Source: Pannonibacter carbonis
GTDB taxonomy: Bacteria > Pseudomonadota > Alphaproteobacteria > Rhizobiales > Stappiaceae
NCBI RefSeq assembly: GCF_003012935.1
Contig: NZ_PUDR01000011.1
Location: 62,001 to 126,000 of the forward strand
Direction of reading: 5' to 3'
Length of the DNA: 64,000 nt
Shown: positions 58,198 to 64,000 of the stretch, in pieces
Numbering within the stretch: position 1 is the first letter of the stretch
How the letters are laid out: every line of letters begins with the position of its first letter
Program-made: the position numbers and the translations under genes
Notes under the pieces: generated by a model
What the model was told of the DNA's origin: nothing
What the model saw: the letters and a program-made list of their open reading frames with translations, nothing else
The model's database searches: none

Positions 58198-58710
58198 TCA
58201 GACCAGCCTGGCCTCGTAGATCTCGGTGGCGGCAAGTGCCAGAAGGCGAGTGGCCATCTCCTGTTTCAGCTCGGTCAGTCGTGTTTCCTGTTCCGGTGTC
58301 CGGTCAGGAGTGGCACCCAGCCGAACGAACTCTTCGCGCACATGTCCGGGCCGGATTGTGACCTCAACTGTGCGGCCGCGGTAAGTGAAGCGCCAGAGAT
58401 AGGGGCCGGGCGGTTCGCTGAGCACGTCACGCCCGCCGAGCGAGCGGTCAACGCTCATGCGGCCATCGGTCAGCGCCCTTGTCACCATTTCCACCGCATC
58501 GCGTCCACCGAGGCCGGCGAAGGCCGTCAACACGGTGATCTCGCGGCGTTGCAGGGGAGCTTCATCAAGCAGCGGGAAAGCGGCCTGCATCGCCTTGAAT
58601 GCGTGAGCAACGCCACCAGGAAATCCGGTGCCATGGTAGAGCAGCAGATCGGCAAAGCGGAACGCCAGCGTCTCCTGACCCTCGGCGACAGTCAAAACAT
58701 CCTTATCCAT
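58198..58710 (-). CDS. Uncharacterised protein, FmdE-like
   Basis: The 170-residue soluble protein ends the six-gene FecBCD operon. Residues 20-75 (LLLYHGTGFPGGVAHAFKAMQ..., ITVLTAFAGLGGRDAVEMVTRALTDGRM) recall the FmdE domain, where a HG-C-PG motif binds metal, but the Cys is missing here (HGTGFPGG). The rest, with a Tyr/Arg-rich beta part (WRFTYRGRTVEVTI), is charged and helical toward the end. It overlaps the previous gene by 8 bases. A role in handling the metal or cofactor imported by the transporter is only a guess. Confidence 0.65.
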   Translation of the reverse strand: MDKDVLTVAEGQETLAFRFADLLLYHGTGFPGGVAHAFKAMQAAFPLLDEAPLQRREITVLTAFAGLGGRDAVEMVTRALTDGRMSVDRSLGGRDVLSEPPGPYLWRFTYRGRTVEVTIRPGHVREEFVRLGATPDRTPEQETRLTELKQEMATRLLALAATEIYEARLV

Positions 58711-59314
58711 TCATCCAGGCTTTCAGGTTGGGCAGGAACTTGTCGAGGAAACGGGTGGTCGCCGGCATGAAATGCGATCCGTGGTGATACATCGGATCGA
58801 GCGAGGTCACCACGAGACGGCCCGGGGTGGAGACGTCATCAACATAGGCGATTGCCTGGCCGGCCAGGTCCTCGGCAAGGACCGTTGCGCCATCCGGCAC
58901 ATCGAAATGGCCGTGCAGATGCCAGGTGACATCGTCCTTGCCAATGCCGTGCATCAGCGGATGGGATGGTGCGGTGACGCGGTTCCCGAGATCGGCATCC
59001 GGCTCCAGCCACCACCACCAGTTTGTCGGCCGTTCATGGAACACGATAGCGGGCGCCCAGAGATCGCTGCGGCTTTCACCCATGGCAATGACGGTGCCGC
59101 CGGCGTCCAGGTGAGCTGCGACAACAGAGCTCTGTCCGATCATCCGCTGCGGCGGTGTGCGGCAGGGGACGAAAAGACAGTCGGAAGGCTTCAGCGCGCC
59201 GACAAGTTGCTCGGGGGCGATCACGTCGTCAAAGAGACAGGCGTAGCGCTCCGCCTCCAGGCTCTCGATGTGATAATAGGTGCCGGCGGAGATGGCGATC
59301 AGGCGCACAGGCAT
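58703..59314 (-). CDS. Uncharacterised ThuA/GATase1-like protein 1
   Basis: The 203-residue protein seems to have a flavodoxin-like GATase1/ThuA fold: an opening beta strand (RLIAISAGTYYH), a Gly-rich turn (HLDAGGTVIAMGE) and the HPLMHGI motif that ThuA relatives show. No Cys-His-Glu amidotransferase triad is evident in the right context, so it may be a non-catalytic or sugar-type relative. A striking WWWWLE stretch lies in the middle. It overlaps both neighbours (16 and 8 bases) in the transporter operon. Confidence 0.65.
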   Translation of the reverse strand: MPVRLIAISAGTYYHIESLEAERYACLFDDVIAPEQLVGALKPSDCLFVPCRTPPQRMIGQSSVVAAHLDAGGTVIAMGESRSDLWAPAIVFHERPTNWWWWLEPDADLGNRVTAPSHPLMHGIGKDDVTWHLHGHFDVPDGATVLAEDLAGQAIAYVDDVSTPGRLVVTSLDPMYHHGSHFMPATTRFLDKFLPNLKAWMNG

Positions 59315-59901
59315 GGCCCTCCTGCGGCCCAGTCAAGGATTCGGGCCTGCAGCAGCGGAGCTAGATCCCACTCAAGCCCCATCTGGCCCAGATCGTTGCC
59401 GGCATGGGAAAACATCCGGCCGCCGCGAACGCGCAGCCAGACCCAGTCCACCGGAACTGTCCCGCCAGCCAGCCCCGTGACAGCGACAGCACCTGCCGGA
59501 AGGGGATTTGCGCCGCGGCCATAGAACCCGGCAACGCCCTTGTTGGTTTCCAGCTTCTCCAGTGCAATGCCGTCGAAGATCGGGTGCATCGCCAGTTGGT
59601 GCAGCGTGAAATCTGCCCGTTTTGGCGCGGCCATCGGCTGATAGATGCCGAGCCCGTCCAAGAGCGGACGAACGATGTGCCCGTTGAAGAACCAGCGCCC
59701 GCCCCGATCCAGAAAGGCCTCCAGATCGGGCTTGAACGCAAGGAGCGCATTCTGGTCAAGGAGATTGCCGGTCACGAAACCTGTAGCCGCAGCAAGGTCT
59801 TGGCCACAGAGCGACGCCTGAGACACGATACGGGCGGCGGGATGCGAGCGGACCGTGGCAGAGGGCTCGGCGAAGCCGGAATTGAGCACCAACACGGTCA
59901 T
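59299..59901 (-). CDS. Uncharacterised ThuA/GATase1-like protein 2
   Basis: The 200-residue protein has a similar layout to its neighbour: an N-terminal beta strand (VLVLNSGFAEP), a Gly-rich turn after a helix (FLDRGGRWFFNG) and a HPIFDGI motif matching HPLMHGI in the downstream protein. The two probably arose by duplication. No signal peptide or membrane segment is seen. It shares ATGA with the ATPase stop, so it is translated with the transporter. Function is unknown. Confidence 0.65.
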   Translation of the reverse strand: MTVLVLNSGFAEPSATVRSHPAARIVSQASLCGQDLAAATGFVTGNLLDQNALLAFKPDLEAFLDRGGRWFFNGHIVRPLLDGLGIYQPMAAPKRADFTLHQLAMHPIFDGIALEKLETNKGVAGFYGRGANPLPAGAVAVTGLAGGTVPVDWVWLRVRGGRMFSHAGNDLGQMGLEWDLAPLLQARILDWAAGGPCLCA

Positions 59902-60644
59902 GCAGCAGCACTCCCGGCAAAGGCCGGCACGATTGCCTTGCGACCCGTTGGCAGCGTCACCCAGTGCATCTCGACACCGTAGAGCCGCTGCATCAAATCG
60001 GGCGTGATCATCTCGGCGAGAGGCCCATGCTGTTCCTCGCCGCCCGGCAGCATCAGGAGCACATCATCAGCCGCTGCGAGCGCATGATTGGGATCATGCG
60101 TGGTGAAGAGAATGGCACGGTCGCGGCGGTCACGAAGACGCGCCAGCAGATCCAGCGTGCGGGACTGGTTGCCAAGGTCCAATGCCGAGGTCGGTTCATC
60201 AAGAACCAGAGCCGGCGAACCGGTGGCAAGCGCACGCGCGATCAGCACAAGCTGGCGCTGTCCGCCCGACAGGCGATCATAGCGCAGACCCGCCAATTCG
60301 CTTGCACCGACCTCGCGCAGCGCGTCTTCAGCCGCAGCAATATCGCCGCGGCCGGGTTGGCCGAACAGGCCGATGCGGGCAGCGCGGCCCATAACCACGA
60401 CATCGAGACCTGTCAGCCGCGACTGGCTGGCACCGTGCTGCGGGACGTAGCCCGTGACATCGGGAGCGGAGCGGCGTCCCTCAGCAAGCACCTGGAGCCC
60501 CAGCAGCGCCCGGATCAATGTGGTCTTGCCCCGCCCGTTGGGTCCGAGAACGGCCAGCGTGCGGCCGGTTTCGACCGTGAAGGATATGCGTTGGAAGAGC
60601 CTTCGCCCCTGGAAAGCGACGGCGGCATTGTCCAGTCCGATCAT
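59898..60644 (-). CDS. FecE/BtuD-type ABC transporter ATPase
   Basis: The 248-residue ATPase has GPNGRGKTT, LSGGQRQLVLIARAL, LVLDEPTSALD and FTTHDPNHAL. Length and motifs fit the ATPases of iron-chelate, heme and vitamin B12 importers. It overlaps the permease stop and the next gene start by four bases each. Note the Arg (GRGKTT) in place of the usual Ala or Ser in Walker A, which is tolerated in the family. Confidence 0.9.
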   Translation of the reverse strand: MIGLDNAAVAFQGRRLFQRISFTVETGRTLAVLGPNGRGKTTLIRALLGLQVLAEGRRSAPDVTGYVPQHGASQSRLTGLDVVVMGRAARIGLFGQPGRGDIAAAEDALREVGASELAGLRYDRLSGGQRQLVLIARALATGSPALVLDEPTSALDLGNQSRTLDLLARLRDRRDRAILFTTHDPNHALAAADDVLLMLPGGEEQHGPLAEMITPDLMQRLYGVEMHWVTLPTGRKAIVPAFAGSAAA

Positions 60645-61687
60645 GGCCGGTTCACCTGTCTGAAGTGGCGGCGGAGAAGCAAGGCAAACACAGGCGCACC
60701 GATCAGCGCCGTCAGCACACCAAGCGGAATCTCGGCACTGGTGAGCGAGCGGGCGAGCGTGTCGACGAAGACAAGGTAGGCGGCACCCAGAAGGGCCGAT
60801 GCTGGAATGAGCACGCGGTGATCCTCGCCGACGATGATGCGCGCGGCATGCGGCACGACCAGCCCGATCCAGCCGACAATCCCTGCGACGGCGACAGACG
60901 TGCCGGTCATCAGCGCGATGGCGATGAAGACGAGCCAGCGTTCCTTGTCCGGACGAACGCCGAGACTGCGCGCTTCCTGCTCTTCAAGCGCCAGAAGGTT
61001 GATGCGATAGCGCAACAGCCAGACGGCGAAGAGACCGAGCGTCAAGCCAGGAACTGCAAGGCTGAGCCGGGCCCAGGTGGCGGTGGAGAAGGAGCCCATC
61101 AGCCAGTAGACGATTGCCGGCAGGGAGGTATTCGGATCGGCGACGAACTGGACAATGGATACCAGGGCCGCAAACAGGGCACCGATCACCATGCCCGACA
61201 GGATCACAGTGATGACCTCGGTGCGGCCATCAATACGCGCCAGCAAGCCGACCATGATCAGCGCAGCCAATCCACCGACAAAGGCCATACCGAGCAGCAG
61301 CACGCCGGAGATTCCGGTCAGGATCGCCAGCGCCCCGCCGAAGGCTGCACCCTGGCTGATGCCCAGAACCTGCGGGCTGACGAGGGGATTGCGGAACACG
61401 CCCTGCAACGCCGCGCCGCCAACAGCCAGCGCAGCCCCGCTTAAAGCCGCCAGCAGAACACGGGGCAGCCGCACCAGCGCCACGATGCGGTCAGCCATCT
61501 CGGTGCCGACACCGTCAACAGCAGCACGCATCAGGATCGTCAGGACTTCCATTGGCGCCACAGAGAAGCGCCCGGCGGAGATGGCATGAACAATTGCCGC
61601 CAGAAGCAGCAGCACCAGCGCCGCAAAGACCCCTGCCCGCCGCATGGAAGCGGCAGGCAGCGCCTTGTGATCAAGGGCGATGGTCAT
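60641..61687 (-). CDS. FecCD/BtuC-type ABC transporter permease
   Basis: The 348-residue inner-membrane permease has about ten hydrophobic segments and the family motifs RLPRVLLAALSGAALAVGGAALQ, split as RLPRVL and GAALQGVFRNPL, plus GWIGLVVPHAAR for ATPase contact. I begin it at ATG 61687, whose codon overlaps the binding-protein TGA (ATGA); the frame stays open 18 codons upstream. It moves the metal chelate or cobalamin-like cargo inward. Confidence 0.9.
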   Translation of the reverse strand: MTIALDHKALPAASMRRAGVFAALVLLLLAAIVHAISAGRFSVAPMEVLTILMRAAVDGVGTEMADRIVALVRLPRVLLAALSGAALAVGGAALQGVFRNPLVSPQVLGISQGAAFGGALAILTGISGVLLLGMAFVGGLAALIMVGLLARIDGRTEVITVILSGMVIGALFAALVSIVQFVADPNTSLPAIVYWLMGSFSTATWARLSLAVPGLTLGLFAVWLLRYRINLLALEEQEARSLGVRPDKERWLVFIAIALMTGTSVAVAGIVGWIGLVVPHAARIIVGEDHRVLIPASALLGAAYLVFVDTLARSLTSAEIPLGVLTALIGAPVFALLLRRHFRQVNRP

Positions 61688-62754
61688 CCCTTGCGCGCGA
61701 AGGCGGCATAGTTGGTCTGGCCACCCTGCATGTCCATCCACAGGATGCTGTCGATCTCGTCATCGGTAAGATCATGGCCGTAGAGCAGCTTGTAGGCCGT
61801 CTTCATCTCGGCGCGCAGGTCATAGGAGAAGACGTCCGGGTGCAGCAGGTTGGCGAGCCACATCCAGGTCAGCGGGCTCTCCTGGCTCGGCGGATCCCAG
61901 CGGTAGCCGCCGAGCGGCAGCTTGTAGACACTGCCCGACTGGGCGGCCTTGGTCAGTGACAGGATCGGGTCATTGGCGATACGCTCGAGCCCGAGCTTGG
62001 CCTCGAAGCTGTTGAGCAGGATCACGTCCGGGTTCCACTCCGCGATCTGCTCGGGGCTGATGGTGACGCCATTGCCCTCGACGGTCGCCGAGGCGTTCTG
62101 GCCGCCGGCAAGCTCAATGTACCAGGCATTATAGTTGCCCTTGGTGCCCGAGGCAGTCAGTCCGTCCTGCGCGCGCAGCAGGTAAAGCACCTTGGGCTTC
62201 TTGTCGTCCGCGATGGTCTTGGACTTTGCAGCAAGGTCCGCCTCGACGCTGGAGCGCCACTCGTTCAGTTCGGCGACCCGCTCCGACTTGCCCATGGCGG
62301 TTGCCGCCATCGACATGTACTCGCGCGTCTTGGCTTCGGTGCCATAGGAGATCAGCATCGCGGTGAGGCCCGCATTGGTGATCGGATCGACGTAGTCCTT
62401 GCCACGGCCCGCCCACTGGATGACGAGATCAGGCCGTGTCGCGGCAAGCTCTTCGACATTCGGAATGAAGTTCGGCGCGGTGATGTCGGACGGGATGTCC
62501 TTGGCCTCGGGGAAAATCGTGCCGAGGATCCCTTCGACAATCGCCGACTTGGCCGTCGGGTTCATGCCGACCAGCTTCGAGGTCGCGCCATCGATGGCGA
62601 TCAGGGTCGAGGCCATGGGGATTGGGATGGAGGCAATGCGGCCAGCCGGCGCAGCAAGCTCCACCGTGCGGCCTTCGTGATCGGTGATGACAATCGGTTC
62701 AGCCTGGGCCGCCGTGGCCAGGAGGCCAAGCAGCAGAACGCCTGCAATGCGCAT
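61684..62754 (-). CDS. FecB/BtuF-type periplasmic binding protein
   Basis: The 356-residue protein has a signal peptide (residues 1-18, cleaved after TAAQA) and a type III helical-backbone binding fold: ITDHEGRTVELAAPAGRIASIP at the start and RPDLVIQW in the first lobe. The family binds iron chelates, heme, cobalamin or molybdate-like ligands. It is first in a tightly overlapped six-gene operon and faces a BtuB-like receptor gene. Cobalamin or a siderophore are the main candidates; the iron-box-like site upstream favours iron. Confidence 0.87.
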   Translation of the reverse strand: MRIAGVLLLGLLATAAQAEPIVITDHEGRTVELAAPAGRIASIPIPMASTLIAIDGATSKLVGMNPTAKSAIVEGILGTIFPEAKDIPSDITAPNFIPNVEELAATRPDLVIQWAGRGKDYVDPITNAGLTAMLISYGTEAKTREYMSMAATAMGKSERVAELNEWRSSVEADLAAKSKTIADDKKPKVLYLLRAQDGLTASGTKGNYNAWYIELAGGQNASATVEGNGVTISPEQIAEWNPDVILLNSFEAKLGLERIANDPILSLTKAAQSGSVYKLPLGGYRWDPPSQESPLTWMWLANLLHPDVFSYDLRAEMKTAYKLLYGHDLTDDEIDSILWMDMQGGQTNYAAFARKG

Positions 62755-62820: not shown

Positions 62821-62843
62821 AAAATTCATGAGTTTTAAAATCA
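62821..62843. promoter_or_regulatory. Dyad with RirA-type iron box (TGA-N9-TCA)
   Basis: TGA at 62829-62831 and TCA at 62841-62843 are separated by nine A/T-rich bases, matching the iron-responsive operator bound by RirA in rhizobia. An overlapping dyad, AAAATTCATGAGTTTT (62821-62836), is palindromic in 7 of 8 pairs. On the leftward strand a TTGATT -35-like word overlaps the box, so binding would block transcription of the FecBCD operon. Confidence 0.5.
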
Positions 62844-62925
62844 AGTATTAATTGGCCACATACCCCCTCCTTTCGGGGGACCCGCCGCGTGCAACCTTGA
62901 CAGGCGGCGCGTTGGACACGCATGC
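62844..62925. other. Short divergent spacer before the riboswitch
   Basis: This stretch holds the rightward promoter of the cobalamin riboswitch. TTGACA-like CTTGACAGG is at about 62895-62903. No clear -10 of normal spacing is evident (18 bases later the sequence is GC-rich). No gene is present. Confidence 0.3.
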
Positions 62926-63124
62926 TGCACCGCGAACGTGGTTCCGTCGGAGGACGGATGAAAAGGGAACACGGTGAGGCGTACCCATCAGGGACCGAAA
63001 CCGTGGCTGCCCCCGCAACTGTGAACGGAGAGTGTGCGTCCACTCATGCCACTGGGAGGCCCAAGGCCAGATCCCGGGAAGGCGGACACACACGGCGACC
63101 CGTGAGCCAGGAGACCTGCCGCGC
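62926..63124 (+). promoter_or_regulatory. Cobalamin riboswitch
   Basis: The sequence runs through all the conserved parts in order: the GGTTCC-to-GGGAAC arm, ACGGTGAGGCGTACCC, the core GCCCCCGCAACTGTGAACG at about 63008-63026, GCCACTGGGAGG, and the B12 box AGCCAGGAGACCTGCC at 63105-63120. Binding of adenosylcobalamin or a relative would fold the RNA and reduce expression of the receptor gene that starts at 63294. A stable hairpin (63205-63228, GGCGGACGC/GCGTCCGCC) in the leader is the likely expression platform. Confidence 0.95.
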
Positions 63125-63204
63125 TCAGTCACCCGGCCTTCGATACGGGGTGTGTCGAGGCGCGGTTTCCCGTTGAGGTGACACCCAAACCTTGCCGTCC
63201 TTTG

Positions 63205-63228
63205 GGCGGACGCTGAGCCGCGTCCGCC
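63205..63228 (+). other. Leader hairpin, probable riboswitch expression platform
   Basis: A perfect 9-base stem with a 6-base loop lies between the riboswitch and the start codon. No T-run follows, so it does not look like a simple terminator. It may form the alternative pairing that controls translation of the receptor. Confidence 0.5.
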
Positions 63229-63293
63229 TGTCAGGCGGTGCGTCGTCCTATGCTGGCGCGGGCACGGCCCGCCGCCAAACGCGGGTGTTTGTC

Positions 63294-64000
63294 ATGAAGA
63301 ACCGGTTCACCACCGGCATTGCCTTGCCGTGCCTTCTGGCCGGCGGGCTCGTCCCTGCCCTTTCCCTTACCGCCGTCACGCCTGCGGCCGCAGAGCCGGA
63401 ACAGCTTGAAGCCATCGTCATCAGCGCCGGCCGCACGCCTCTGGAAGCGGAGAAAGTCGGACGCGCCACAACCGTGATCACGGGCGCGAGCCTCGAAAAA
63501 TCGCAGGTTCGCTATGTTGCCGATGCGCTGCGGCAGGTGCCTGGCGTTGCTGTCTCGCGCACGGGTTCATTCGGCGGCCTTACGCAGATCCGCCTGCGCG
63601 GATCGGAAGCCAACCATGTGCTGGTCCTGATCGACGGCGTCGAGGTGGCCTCATCGTCGTCGGGGGAATATGACTTCGGCGGCATGCAGGCGTCCGACAT
63701 CGAGCGGATCGAGGTACTGCGCGGGCCGCAGGGCGCGCTCTATGGTTCGAATGCCGCCTCCGGCGTGATTCACATCTTCACCAAGGGTGGCCTGCGCAAC
63801 GGCTACCGGGTCACCGGACGCAGCGAGGTGGGCACCGACAAGACGGTCCTCACCGACCTTCTGGTCCAGGGCGGCAATGACCGCATCGACGGGGCCTTCT
63901 CGGCGGCGCTCCGCCGGACCGACGGCTTCAACATCTCCGACTACGGCAACGAGAAGGACGGCGACCGCAACGTGACCTTGAATGGCAAGGTGCGTGCCGA
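63294..64000 (+). CDS. btuB: TonB-dependent receptor, BtuB-like (cut by window end)
   Basis: The gene is open from ATG 63294 to the window edge (235 codons read; the rest lies outside). It has a signal peptide (MKNRFTTGIALPCLLAGG..., cleaved after about PAAA), a TonB-box-like EAIVISAG just after, and a plug domain with LRQVPGVAVSRTGSFGGL, IRLRGSEANHVLVLIDGVE and LRGPQGALYGSNAASGVIHIFTK. The cobalamin riboswitch in its leader is the strongest sign that it imports a corrinoid across the outer membrane. It is divergent from the FecBCD-type operon. Confidence 0.9.
   Translation, partial: MKNRFTTGIALPCLLAGGLVPALSLTAVTPAAAEPEQLEAIVISAGRTPLEAEKVGRATTVITGASLEKSQVRYVADALRQVPGVAVSRTGSFGGLTQIRLRGSEANHVLVLIDGVEVASSSSGEYDFGGMQASDIERIEVLRGPQGALYGSNAASGVIHIFTKGGLRNGYRVTGRSEVGTDKTVLTDLLVQGGNDRIDGAFSAALRRTDGFNISDYGNEKDGDRNVTLNGKVRA

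Follow-up and report, generated by a model that had tools for sequence, protein, structure and literature searches.

A run of six overlapping genes in a 64,000-nucleotide stretch of the Pannonibacter carbonis genome (contig NZ_PUDR01000011.1, positions 62,001 to 126,000; hereafter the window) encodes a FecBCD-type ATP-binding cassette (ABC) importer together with three small soluble proteins. We named two of these GatA and GatB, names coined here and unrelated to the tRNA amidotransferase; the third is FmdE-like. We consider it probable that the operon is a RirA-repressed importer of a ferric chelate, in which GatA and GatB, paired in the cytosol and assisted by the FmdE-like protein, would take the chelate and free its iron. 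The features that can be read directly from sequence are the layout, the importer class, the homology and fusion of GatA and GatB, their association with importers of multiple classes, and the iron-type operators in many relatives.

The six open reading frames (ORFs) lie on the minus strand from position 62754 down to 58198, each with an ATG start and a single terminal stop, and overlap at successive junctions by 4, 4, 4, 16 and 8 bases (Table 1). The initial annotation had described this leftward run with exactly these overlaps, and it proved right in every detail that we checked. The overlaps suggest co-expression. The stoichiometric partnership that had been read from them does not follow from overlaps, but the gene fusions described below imply a 1:1 pair of GatA and GatB.

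The first three genes encode the importer, with PF01497, PF01032 and PF00005 all above the Pfam cut-off in one operon. The nearest solved structures to the substrate-binding protein (SBP) were 4ovk (1.1e-52), 4hn9 (5e-22) and 4ino/4ls3, a 'nickel' binding protein (~8e-11), and nickel models were absent among the 8 NCBIfam models that the SBP matched. The best NCBIfam model for the permease was BtuC (238.6 bits against a cut-off of 461), and the permease stayed under the cut-off of every NCBIfam model it matched; the SBP scored 19.4 of 234 bits with the BtuF model. In the lists examined, no equivalog cut-off was reached by the SBP, permease or ATPase, and the substrate therefore cannot be read from family names. 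The operon resembles the FecBCD/BtuCDF importers of ferric siderophores, haem and B12 in its SBP, single FecCD permease, ATPase and upstream iron-type operator, but differs from them in carrying three conserved soluble partners downstream and no recognised reductase or esterase gene among its six genes.

GatA and GatB among relatives

Relatives were sought by GatB alone, so that the choice of loci was unbiased by importers. A search of genome contigs supplied 16 loci. GatB was found in at least 7 of 385 genomes of the class and in 18 of 87 genomes of the family (window's genome included in both), in at least 3 of 346 genomes of an actinobacterial phylum (the centre included), in at least 3 of 349 genomes of a betaproteobacterial order (two of them already in the set) and in 32 of 72,556 plasmid records, of which 16 were examined. 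The class, actinobacterial and betaproteobacterial counts are lower bounds, since only some first-look candidates were scored per genome. With short duplicates and L010, L011, L012 and L023 (repeats of L059, L060, L062 and L063) dropped, 55 non-identical loci were tabulated, some of them near-copies.

GatA stood alongside GatB in all 55 loci (as a remnant in L071), and in 50 of them a same-strand ABC importer adjoined the pair within 7.5 kb: 27 FecBCD, 19 Opp/Nik-type, 3 Ssu-type and 1 Fbp-type. For rough comparison, an ABC gene is the neighbour of 6 among the 38 other genes called in the window. A divergent importer lies beside the pair in L084 and L095, and no ABC importer was found by the probes used in L021 and L022; at L071 the contig ends, and transposase-like genes precede the module. 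GatB is thus not mostly found away from transporters, and these counts support a conserved partnership of GatA and GatB with importers of several classes. The initial annotation had made the small proteins partners of FecBCD; the partnership with an importer stands, but its restriction to FecBCD does not, because Opp/Nik, Ssu and Fbp-type importers substitute.

The exchange of importers is also visible in the GatB tree of 57 modules, on which the importer labels (five states including 'none') need 9 changes where the minimum possible is 4; the well-supported branches alone force 2 changes for FecBCD and 3 for Opp. A single fused GatA-GatB protein is encoded by 15 of the 57 modules, with the order A-B in 7 and B-A in 8. 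Fusion in both orders is strong evidence that the two proteins form a physical pair. The pair is spread over Alphaproteobacteria, Betaproteobacteria, Actinobacteria, Paenibacillus, Aliivibrio and one haloarchaeon; its distribution is patchy, a number of copies are plasmid-borne, and several Gram-negative loci also contain TonB receptors.

Several local arrangements were noted. The Opp-type version found in Thalassospira and in the window's family (L013, L015-L017, L058-L066) is ordered permease-permease-SBP-GatA-GatB. ATPase probes detected no same-strand ABC ATPase gene within 7.5 kb in these loci, so this importer seems to borrow its ATPase. In the haloarchaeon Natribaculum (L079, 6173-11445), a DtxR-type palindrome precedes a set in which GatA and GatB separate an Fbp/PhnS-like binding protein from its permease of 605 aa. 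In betaproteobacterial copies, a divergent Crp/Fnr-type regulator gene is found beside the receptor or importer genes (Table 1).

Iron-type operators upstream of the module

The intergenic region between the SBP gene and the divergent cobalamin riboswitch contains TGATTTTAAAACTCA, a TGA-N9-TCA element as expected upstream of members of a RirA regulon. According to passages of PMC8822346, the RirA motif is a conserved palindrome that precedes putative iron uptake genes and was present in 5 of 10 RirA chromatin immunoprecipitation peaks; IRO boxes are described in passages of PMC6748827. The window's genome encodes a RirA homologue (191.3 bits against a cut-off of 193; Rrf2 superfamily, 114.4; NsrR, 104.3), and RirA would be expected to bind the element at 62829-62843.

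A bare TGA-N9-TCA is loose, occurring 19 times in the window against 11.3 expected from shuffles; the case rests instead on how often it recurs before related operons in other species. The operator was spotted in raw upstream sequences, a MAFFT alignment of the upstream regions having been uninformative. Among 43 alphaproteobacterial loci, 28 have an exact match in the 300 bp that precede their first gene, compared with 8 of 63 regions before other genes of the same loci (Fisher p 2.6e-8) and with 358 of 5500 shuffles of 11 test regions. Operons of the FecBCD type, of the Opp type and with GatAB first all include cases with the operator. We also scanned with what we take to be the Fur and DtxR consensus sequences, and some relatives in other lineages have boxes of these types in its place. 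Paenibacillus L077 has a Fur box with zero mismatches that none of 262 other windows matched as well; Fur-type boxes were also found in L019 and L008 (0/329 windows each) and in L052 and L057 (0/302 each), and DtxR-type boxes in L095 (0/302), L022 (0/231) and the haloarchaeal L079 (0/260). L054 has a Fur-like box too and is already counted among the 28 RirA-type loci. Altogether, an iron-type box (exact RirA-type in alphaproteobacteria, zero-background Fur or DtxR elsewhere) was found in 36 of 55 loci; the scan covered 53 loci, with L021 and L071 outside it. The flanks of the Methylosinus and Methylocystis copies also speak for iron, with TonB siderophore receptors, PepSY proteins and, for one copy, HemP, although no box was found in those loci. 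Iron control is well supported. The initial annotation had left the cargo as a chelate or a corrinoid; the RirA, Fur and DtxR-type boxes speak for an iron chelate, and the corrinoid is unlikely for reasons given below.

Table 1. Features of the window, followed by groups of related loci (positions within each locus)
Feature	Position	Strand	Evidence or remark
SBP (FecB/BtuF-like), 356 aa	61684..62754	-	PF01497, 66.9 bits (cut-off 27.5)
FecCD-type permease, 348 aa	60641..61687	-	PF01032, 284.4 bits (cut-off 26.5)
ABC ATPase, 248 aa	59898..60644	-	PF00005, 79.5 bits (cut-off 25)
GatA, predicted GATase-like-fold protein A, 200 aa	59299..59901	-	alignments A2, A7; fold from a relative's fusion
GatB, predicted GATase-like-fold protein B, 203 aa	58703..59314	-	alignments A1, A6; hhalign to GatA
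FmdE-like protein, core domain only, 170 aa	58198..58710	-	AlphaFold2, Foldseek, alignment A3
Candidate RirA-type operator TGA-N9-TCA, TGATTTTAAAACTCA	62829..62843	.	sequence given for the minus strand; 89 bases before SBP start
Cobalamin riboswitch of divergent btuB, outside operon	62922..63137	+	Rfam RF00174, 119.2 bits
btuB-like TonB receptor ORF, outside operon	63192..64000	+	likely start 63294
A-B fusions	L009, L022, L053, L075, L081, L082, L092		
B-A fusions	L057, L072, L073, L074, L078, L087, second modules of L082 and L084		
Crp/Fnr-type regulator	L014 5703-6611		Pfam
Crp/Fnr-type regulator	L018 268-978; L019 3524-4315; L020 3313-4026		by eye
C-P lyase-linked copies, Labrenzia	L075 8299-14260; L089		
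C-P lyase-linked copies, Martelella	L088 7300-16514; L091		
C-P lyase-linked copies, Agrobacterium vitis	L081 10242-16603; L090		

Predicted folds and conserved residues of the soluble proteins

GatA and GatB had no Pfam match at E<=1 and no accepted NCBIfam match. The initial annotation had regarded them as duplicates on the strength of a common HP(I/L)(F/M)(D/H)GI motif. The motif is present in both, as HPIFDGI at GatA residue 106 and HPLMHGI at GatB residue 118, and a profile-profile comparison with hhalign (probability 98.8%, E 7.5e-17) places the duplication beyond chance. In GatB, W100-W102, H118, W131-H132, D173-P174 and H177 are invariant among the 35 sequences of alignment A6, which come from more than one phylum (numbered here with Met = 1; alignments A1 and A6 number residues without the Met). 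This pattern of Trp, His and Asp-Pro residues suggests a putative binding site. No Cys occurs among the invariant or nearly invariant columns of the GatA and GatB alignments (A1, A2, A6, A7), which makes a Cys-dependent amidotransferase unlikely; the catalytic Cys-His-Glu triad of a class I glutamine amidotransferase (GATase) is accordingly not found in either protein.

A structural model was obtained for the GatA-GatB fusion of Chelativorans (L009, 434 aa), with a mean predicted local distance difference test score (pLDDT) of 83.8 and a predicted template-modelling score of 0.84. Foldseek matched it to 3fij (E 1.5e-5), 5fmr (1.8e-5) and 2a9v (6.6e-4), with a target template-modelling (TM) score of ~0.5 for the first ones. 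The best matches were lin1909, the IFT52 N-terminal domain, GH42 enzymes and the GMP synthase A subunit, all of which we take to be GATase-like domains. GatA and GatB are thus predicted to have the class I GATase-like fold, as modelled on the fusion of this relative rather than on the window's own pair. Some relatives weakly matched DUF4159, ThuA or DUF4350 (best E 0.0002). With ThuA (PF06283), 5 of 35 GatB relatives (best E 0.0019) and 2 of 33 GatA relatives (best E 0.00063) matched at E<=0.1, and window GatA and GatB gave no match. Of the label 'ThuA/GATase-like' given to them earlier, the broad GATase-like part holds and the ThuA part does not, as far as the family model goes. Sequence searches of the PDB with the profiles of GatA, GatB and the FmdE-like protein gave nothing useful. 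The pair shares its fold and weak sequence matches with the class I GATase-like superfamily (ThuA, DUF4159, DUF4350, lin1909, the IFT52 N-terminal domain), but is set apart by the lack of a conserved Cys nucleophile, by an A/B pair that is often fused, and by its tie to importers. By eye, neither GatA nor GatB has an N-terminal signal segment, and the fusion model starts with a strand; a cytosolic location of GatA·GatB is therefore likely.

The FmdE-like protein of the window had no accepted Pfam or NCBIfam match, its sub-threshold hit (E 0.083) being to an unrelated Pfam family. Its AlphaFold2 model has a mean pLDDT of 94.5, and Foldseek returned 2glz (E 1.9e-6, probability 1.00, TM scores 0.61/0.68), then 2gvi and 3d00. 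The predicted structure therefore bears out, at the level of the fold, the resemblance to FmdE without the Cys that the initial annotation had noted. In sequence, the family model PF02663 did not match the window protein and matched 4 of 10 relatives at E<=0.1 (best E 0.006). H26 is the sole invariant His of alignment A3, and there is no Cys among the conserved columns. Passages of PMC2954224 give the metal ligands of 2glz as His15, His17, Cys19 and Cys55; this two-His/two-Cys site is not conserved as a set, position equivalence being judged by motif. The same passages report that most FmdE-family genes adjoin metal-ion transporter genes and suggest a role in metal transport, which is the closest published statement that we met in the literature examined. 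The window protein resembles the FmdE family (PF02663; 2glz, 2gvi, 3d00) in its core fold and in being encoded next to a chelate importer, a location reported for most members, but it lies below the Pfam threshold and lacks both the 2glz ligand set and the zinc finger.

An FmdE-like gene accompanies GatB in 21 of the 55 loci. A scan of the family found one in 8 of 87 genomes, beside GatAB in 4 and beside an Ssu-type importer in 3. The GatAB-free genes directly follow the Ssu-type importer (L100 9271-9828, L101 9501-10046, L102 9132-9764). The remaining genome has a tandem FmdE-like pair (L099 9286-10403) near YeeE/YedE-like and sox-like genes; the neighbours in these GatAB-free loci were named by eye.

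Candidate ligands and the proposed role of the module

ALTERNATIVES weighed beside iron were the cobalamin riboswitch, the nickel neighbours and the C-P (carbon-phosphorus) lyase genes. The cobalamin riboswitch begins 168 bases, and the btuB ORF 438 bases, from the start of the SBP gene, and BtuC is the best model of the permease, so that the operon could be a second Btu system whose three extra proteins remodel corrinoids. We consider this very improbable and rejected corrinoid uptake. The riboswitch lies on the plus strand, opposite to the operon, and runs into the rightward btuB, which has a BtuF/C/D-like set of its own beyond the window (ORFs of L007; permease and ATPase by BLAST, BtuF by PF01497). 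No cobalamin riboswitch recurred at the Rfam gathering threshold in the 15 relatives' loci scanned, and the importers of the relatives include Opp, Ssu and Fbp types, many with iron boxes. Neither the riboswitch control nor the equivalog scores of a BtuFCD cobalamin importer were found for the operon.

Uptake of a nickel or cobalt chelate is quite unlikely as well. It would fit 2 of 3 Opp-type binding proteins tested, which score best with NikA models, below the cut-off (L015, 264.4 of 600 and 188.9 of 393; L077, 174.4 of 393); the third, L069, had Opp4A as its best model. HupE/UreJ proteins occur in L069, L070 and L086, a NiCoT gene lies ~2.6 kb from GatA in the actinobacterial L021, and urease is present in 18 of 18 GatB genomes of the family. 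However, urease is also present in 62 of 69 other family genomes (p 0.34), no NiCoT was detected within 7.5 kb in the sister actinobacterial L022, which has a DtxR-type box, and iron boxes precede most Opp-type operons. On these grounds nickel was given up; a scan aimed at nickel operators was not made. The window SBP and the Opp-type relatives also score below the equivalog cut-offs of nickel importers (NikA/NiuBDE). The module resembles NikABCDE and the Helicobacter pylori CeuE-NiuBDE importer in its importer classes and in the weak similarity of the SBP to 4ino/4ls3, but GatAB operons carry iron-type boxes. Passages of a nickel/cobalt transporter survey (PMC2667541) do not mention the GatAB module. 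The HupE/UreJ_2 protein lies between a fused permease-ATPase and GatA (L069 10391-11614, PF13795 120.8 bits; L070 10297-11520; L086 6188-7399).

It is also possible, if unlikely, that the importer takes up a phosphonate or sulfonate, with GatA, GatB and the FmdE-like protein serving ligand catabolism and not iron supply. On Labrenzia and Martelella plasmids, GatAB-FecBCD-FmdE-like genes are followed by the C-P lyase genes phnG, phnH, phnI (unlisted in Labrenzia) and phnJ and by two ATPase genes. In A. vitis, a second FecBCD-FmdE-like set running into phnGHIJ stands next to the GatAB operon. The binding protein of the haloarchaeon comes closest to a 2-aminoethylphosphonate model (60.3 bits against 392.75), and the 3 Ssu-type loci lack a strong iron box. 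However, a PhnJ probe found phn genes within 7.5 kb in 1 of the 55 loci (L088), annotation adding L075 and, farther off, L081; moreover, the phn-linked L075 and L088 carry an iron-type box. PhnJ is present in 83 of 87 family genomes and is thus uninformative about GatB, and the second PhnJ of the window's genome (L097) belongs to a phn operon of ordinary appearance on a different contig; the phosphonate substrate was rejected on this basis. The copies in L075 and L088 are a local combination that may mean an iron-regulated phosphonate chelate, or possibly an iron-regulated C-P lyase. The two PhnJ of the window's genome are at L097 (G000:C10:46000-65000) and G000:C32:194256-195071; by eye, the more divergent one is within a GntR-phnGHIJKLM-like operon, and 3 of 4 other genomes of the genus have a similar second PhnJ.

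The soluble proteins might instead never contact the ligand, and serve in gating or assembly of the importer or in sensing iron or ligand. The fold matches to the IFT52 N-terminal domain and to GH42 enzymes lend this some weight, as GATase-like domains presumably can be non-catalytic assembly parts and GH42 enzymes presumably carry a trimerisation domain of this fold. We find it doubtful, since a fixed docking role becomes less probable when one module serves importers of four classes. That the importer is swapped around a constant GatA·GatB argues for contact of the pair with the cargo or its iron, not with one transporter.

We therefore return to the ferric-chelate importer. When iron is plentiful, RirA would sit on the operator and keep the operon off. 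When iron is short, the SBP would capture a ferric chelate, and the permease and ATPase would move it over the inner membrane. In the cytosol, the GatA·GatB heterodimer and the FmdE-like protein would take the incoming complex and free its iron or ready the ligand for release, with GatA·GatB possibly acting through the conserved Trp and His residues of GatB. This biochemical step is inferred, as are RirA binding, the ferric siderophore as ligand and the cytosolic location of GatA·GatB. The ligand is most likely a ferric siderophore made by another organism, given the patchy distribution, the plasmid copies, the TonB receptors and the lack of siderophore biosynthesis genes, none of which were noticed beside the loci inspected, where no systematic search was made.

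Several observations weigh against this reading. Seventeen of the 53 scanned loci lack a strong box: 5 have only a weak Fur-like box (L016, L020, L053, L078, L080) and none was found in L014, L015, L018, L055, L056, L074, L076, L083, L085, L086, L094 and L096. A strong iron box is missing from all 3 Ssu-type loci. The per-locus background of TGA-N9-TCA among alphaproteobacterial matches reaches 49 of 302 windows (L073), single RirA-type matches such as those at L013 and L084 may be chance hits, and the loci are relatives of one another, Opp-type operons of the window's family making up 10 of the 28 that have the box. The DtxR-like match of L016 (5 mismatches, 0/329) must be chance, so single box hits are not proof. 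The element does not cleanly discriminate among the five other PF01497 genes of the window's genome, leaving that comparison undecided: two have an AT-rich TGA-N9-TCA (-123 and -57), the BtuF-like L006 has a GC-rich one at -160, and L001 and L003 have none, as far as their starts are known. The RirA homologue falls 1.7 bits under its equivalog cut-off, and we found no biochemical evidence for GatA, GatB or the FmdE-like protein. Finally, because C-P lyase genes lie beside some plasmid copies and a nickel transporter gene near one actinobacterial copy, one substrate for all loci cannot be assumed.

SIP/FhuF reductases and Fes/IroD esterases carry out cytosolic iron-release steps, the position in the pathway proposed here for GatA·GatB; GatA, GatB and the FmdE-like protein matched none of these families in Pfam or NCBIfam. 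To our knowledge, cytosolic removal of iron from imported siderophores is understood for only a few reductases and esterases. We found no description of a GATase-like pair with iron importers in the literature examined, an absence that is not proof, as subscription coverage was limited. The GatA/GatB module is a new family assignment in a known kind of pathway. With confidence that falls just short of even, we propose that GatA·GatB, with or without the FmdE-like protein, may constitute a previously unnamed, transporter-independent and iron-regulated class of cytosolic ferric-chelate processing proteins, passed between bacteria and haloarchaea and joined anew to at least four different ABC importer classes.

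That GatAB stays constant while the importer is exchanged, often behind iron-type operators, points to a general post-import step, whose proteins neither Pfam nor NCBIfam names. The plasmid records examined list such proteins as hypothetical, and for these a testable prediction is now available; the FmdE fold, tied to metal transporters by gene order, gains a defined operon in which it may be studied.

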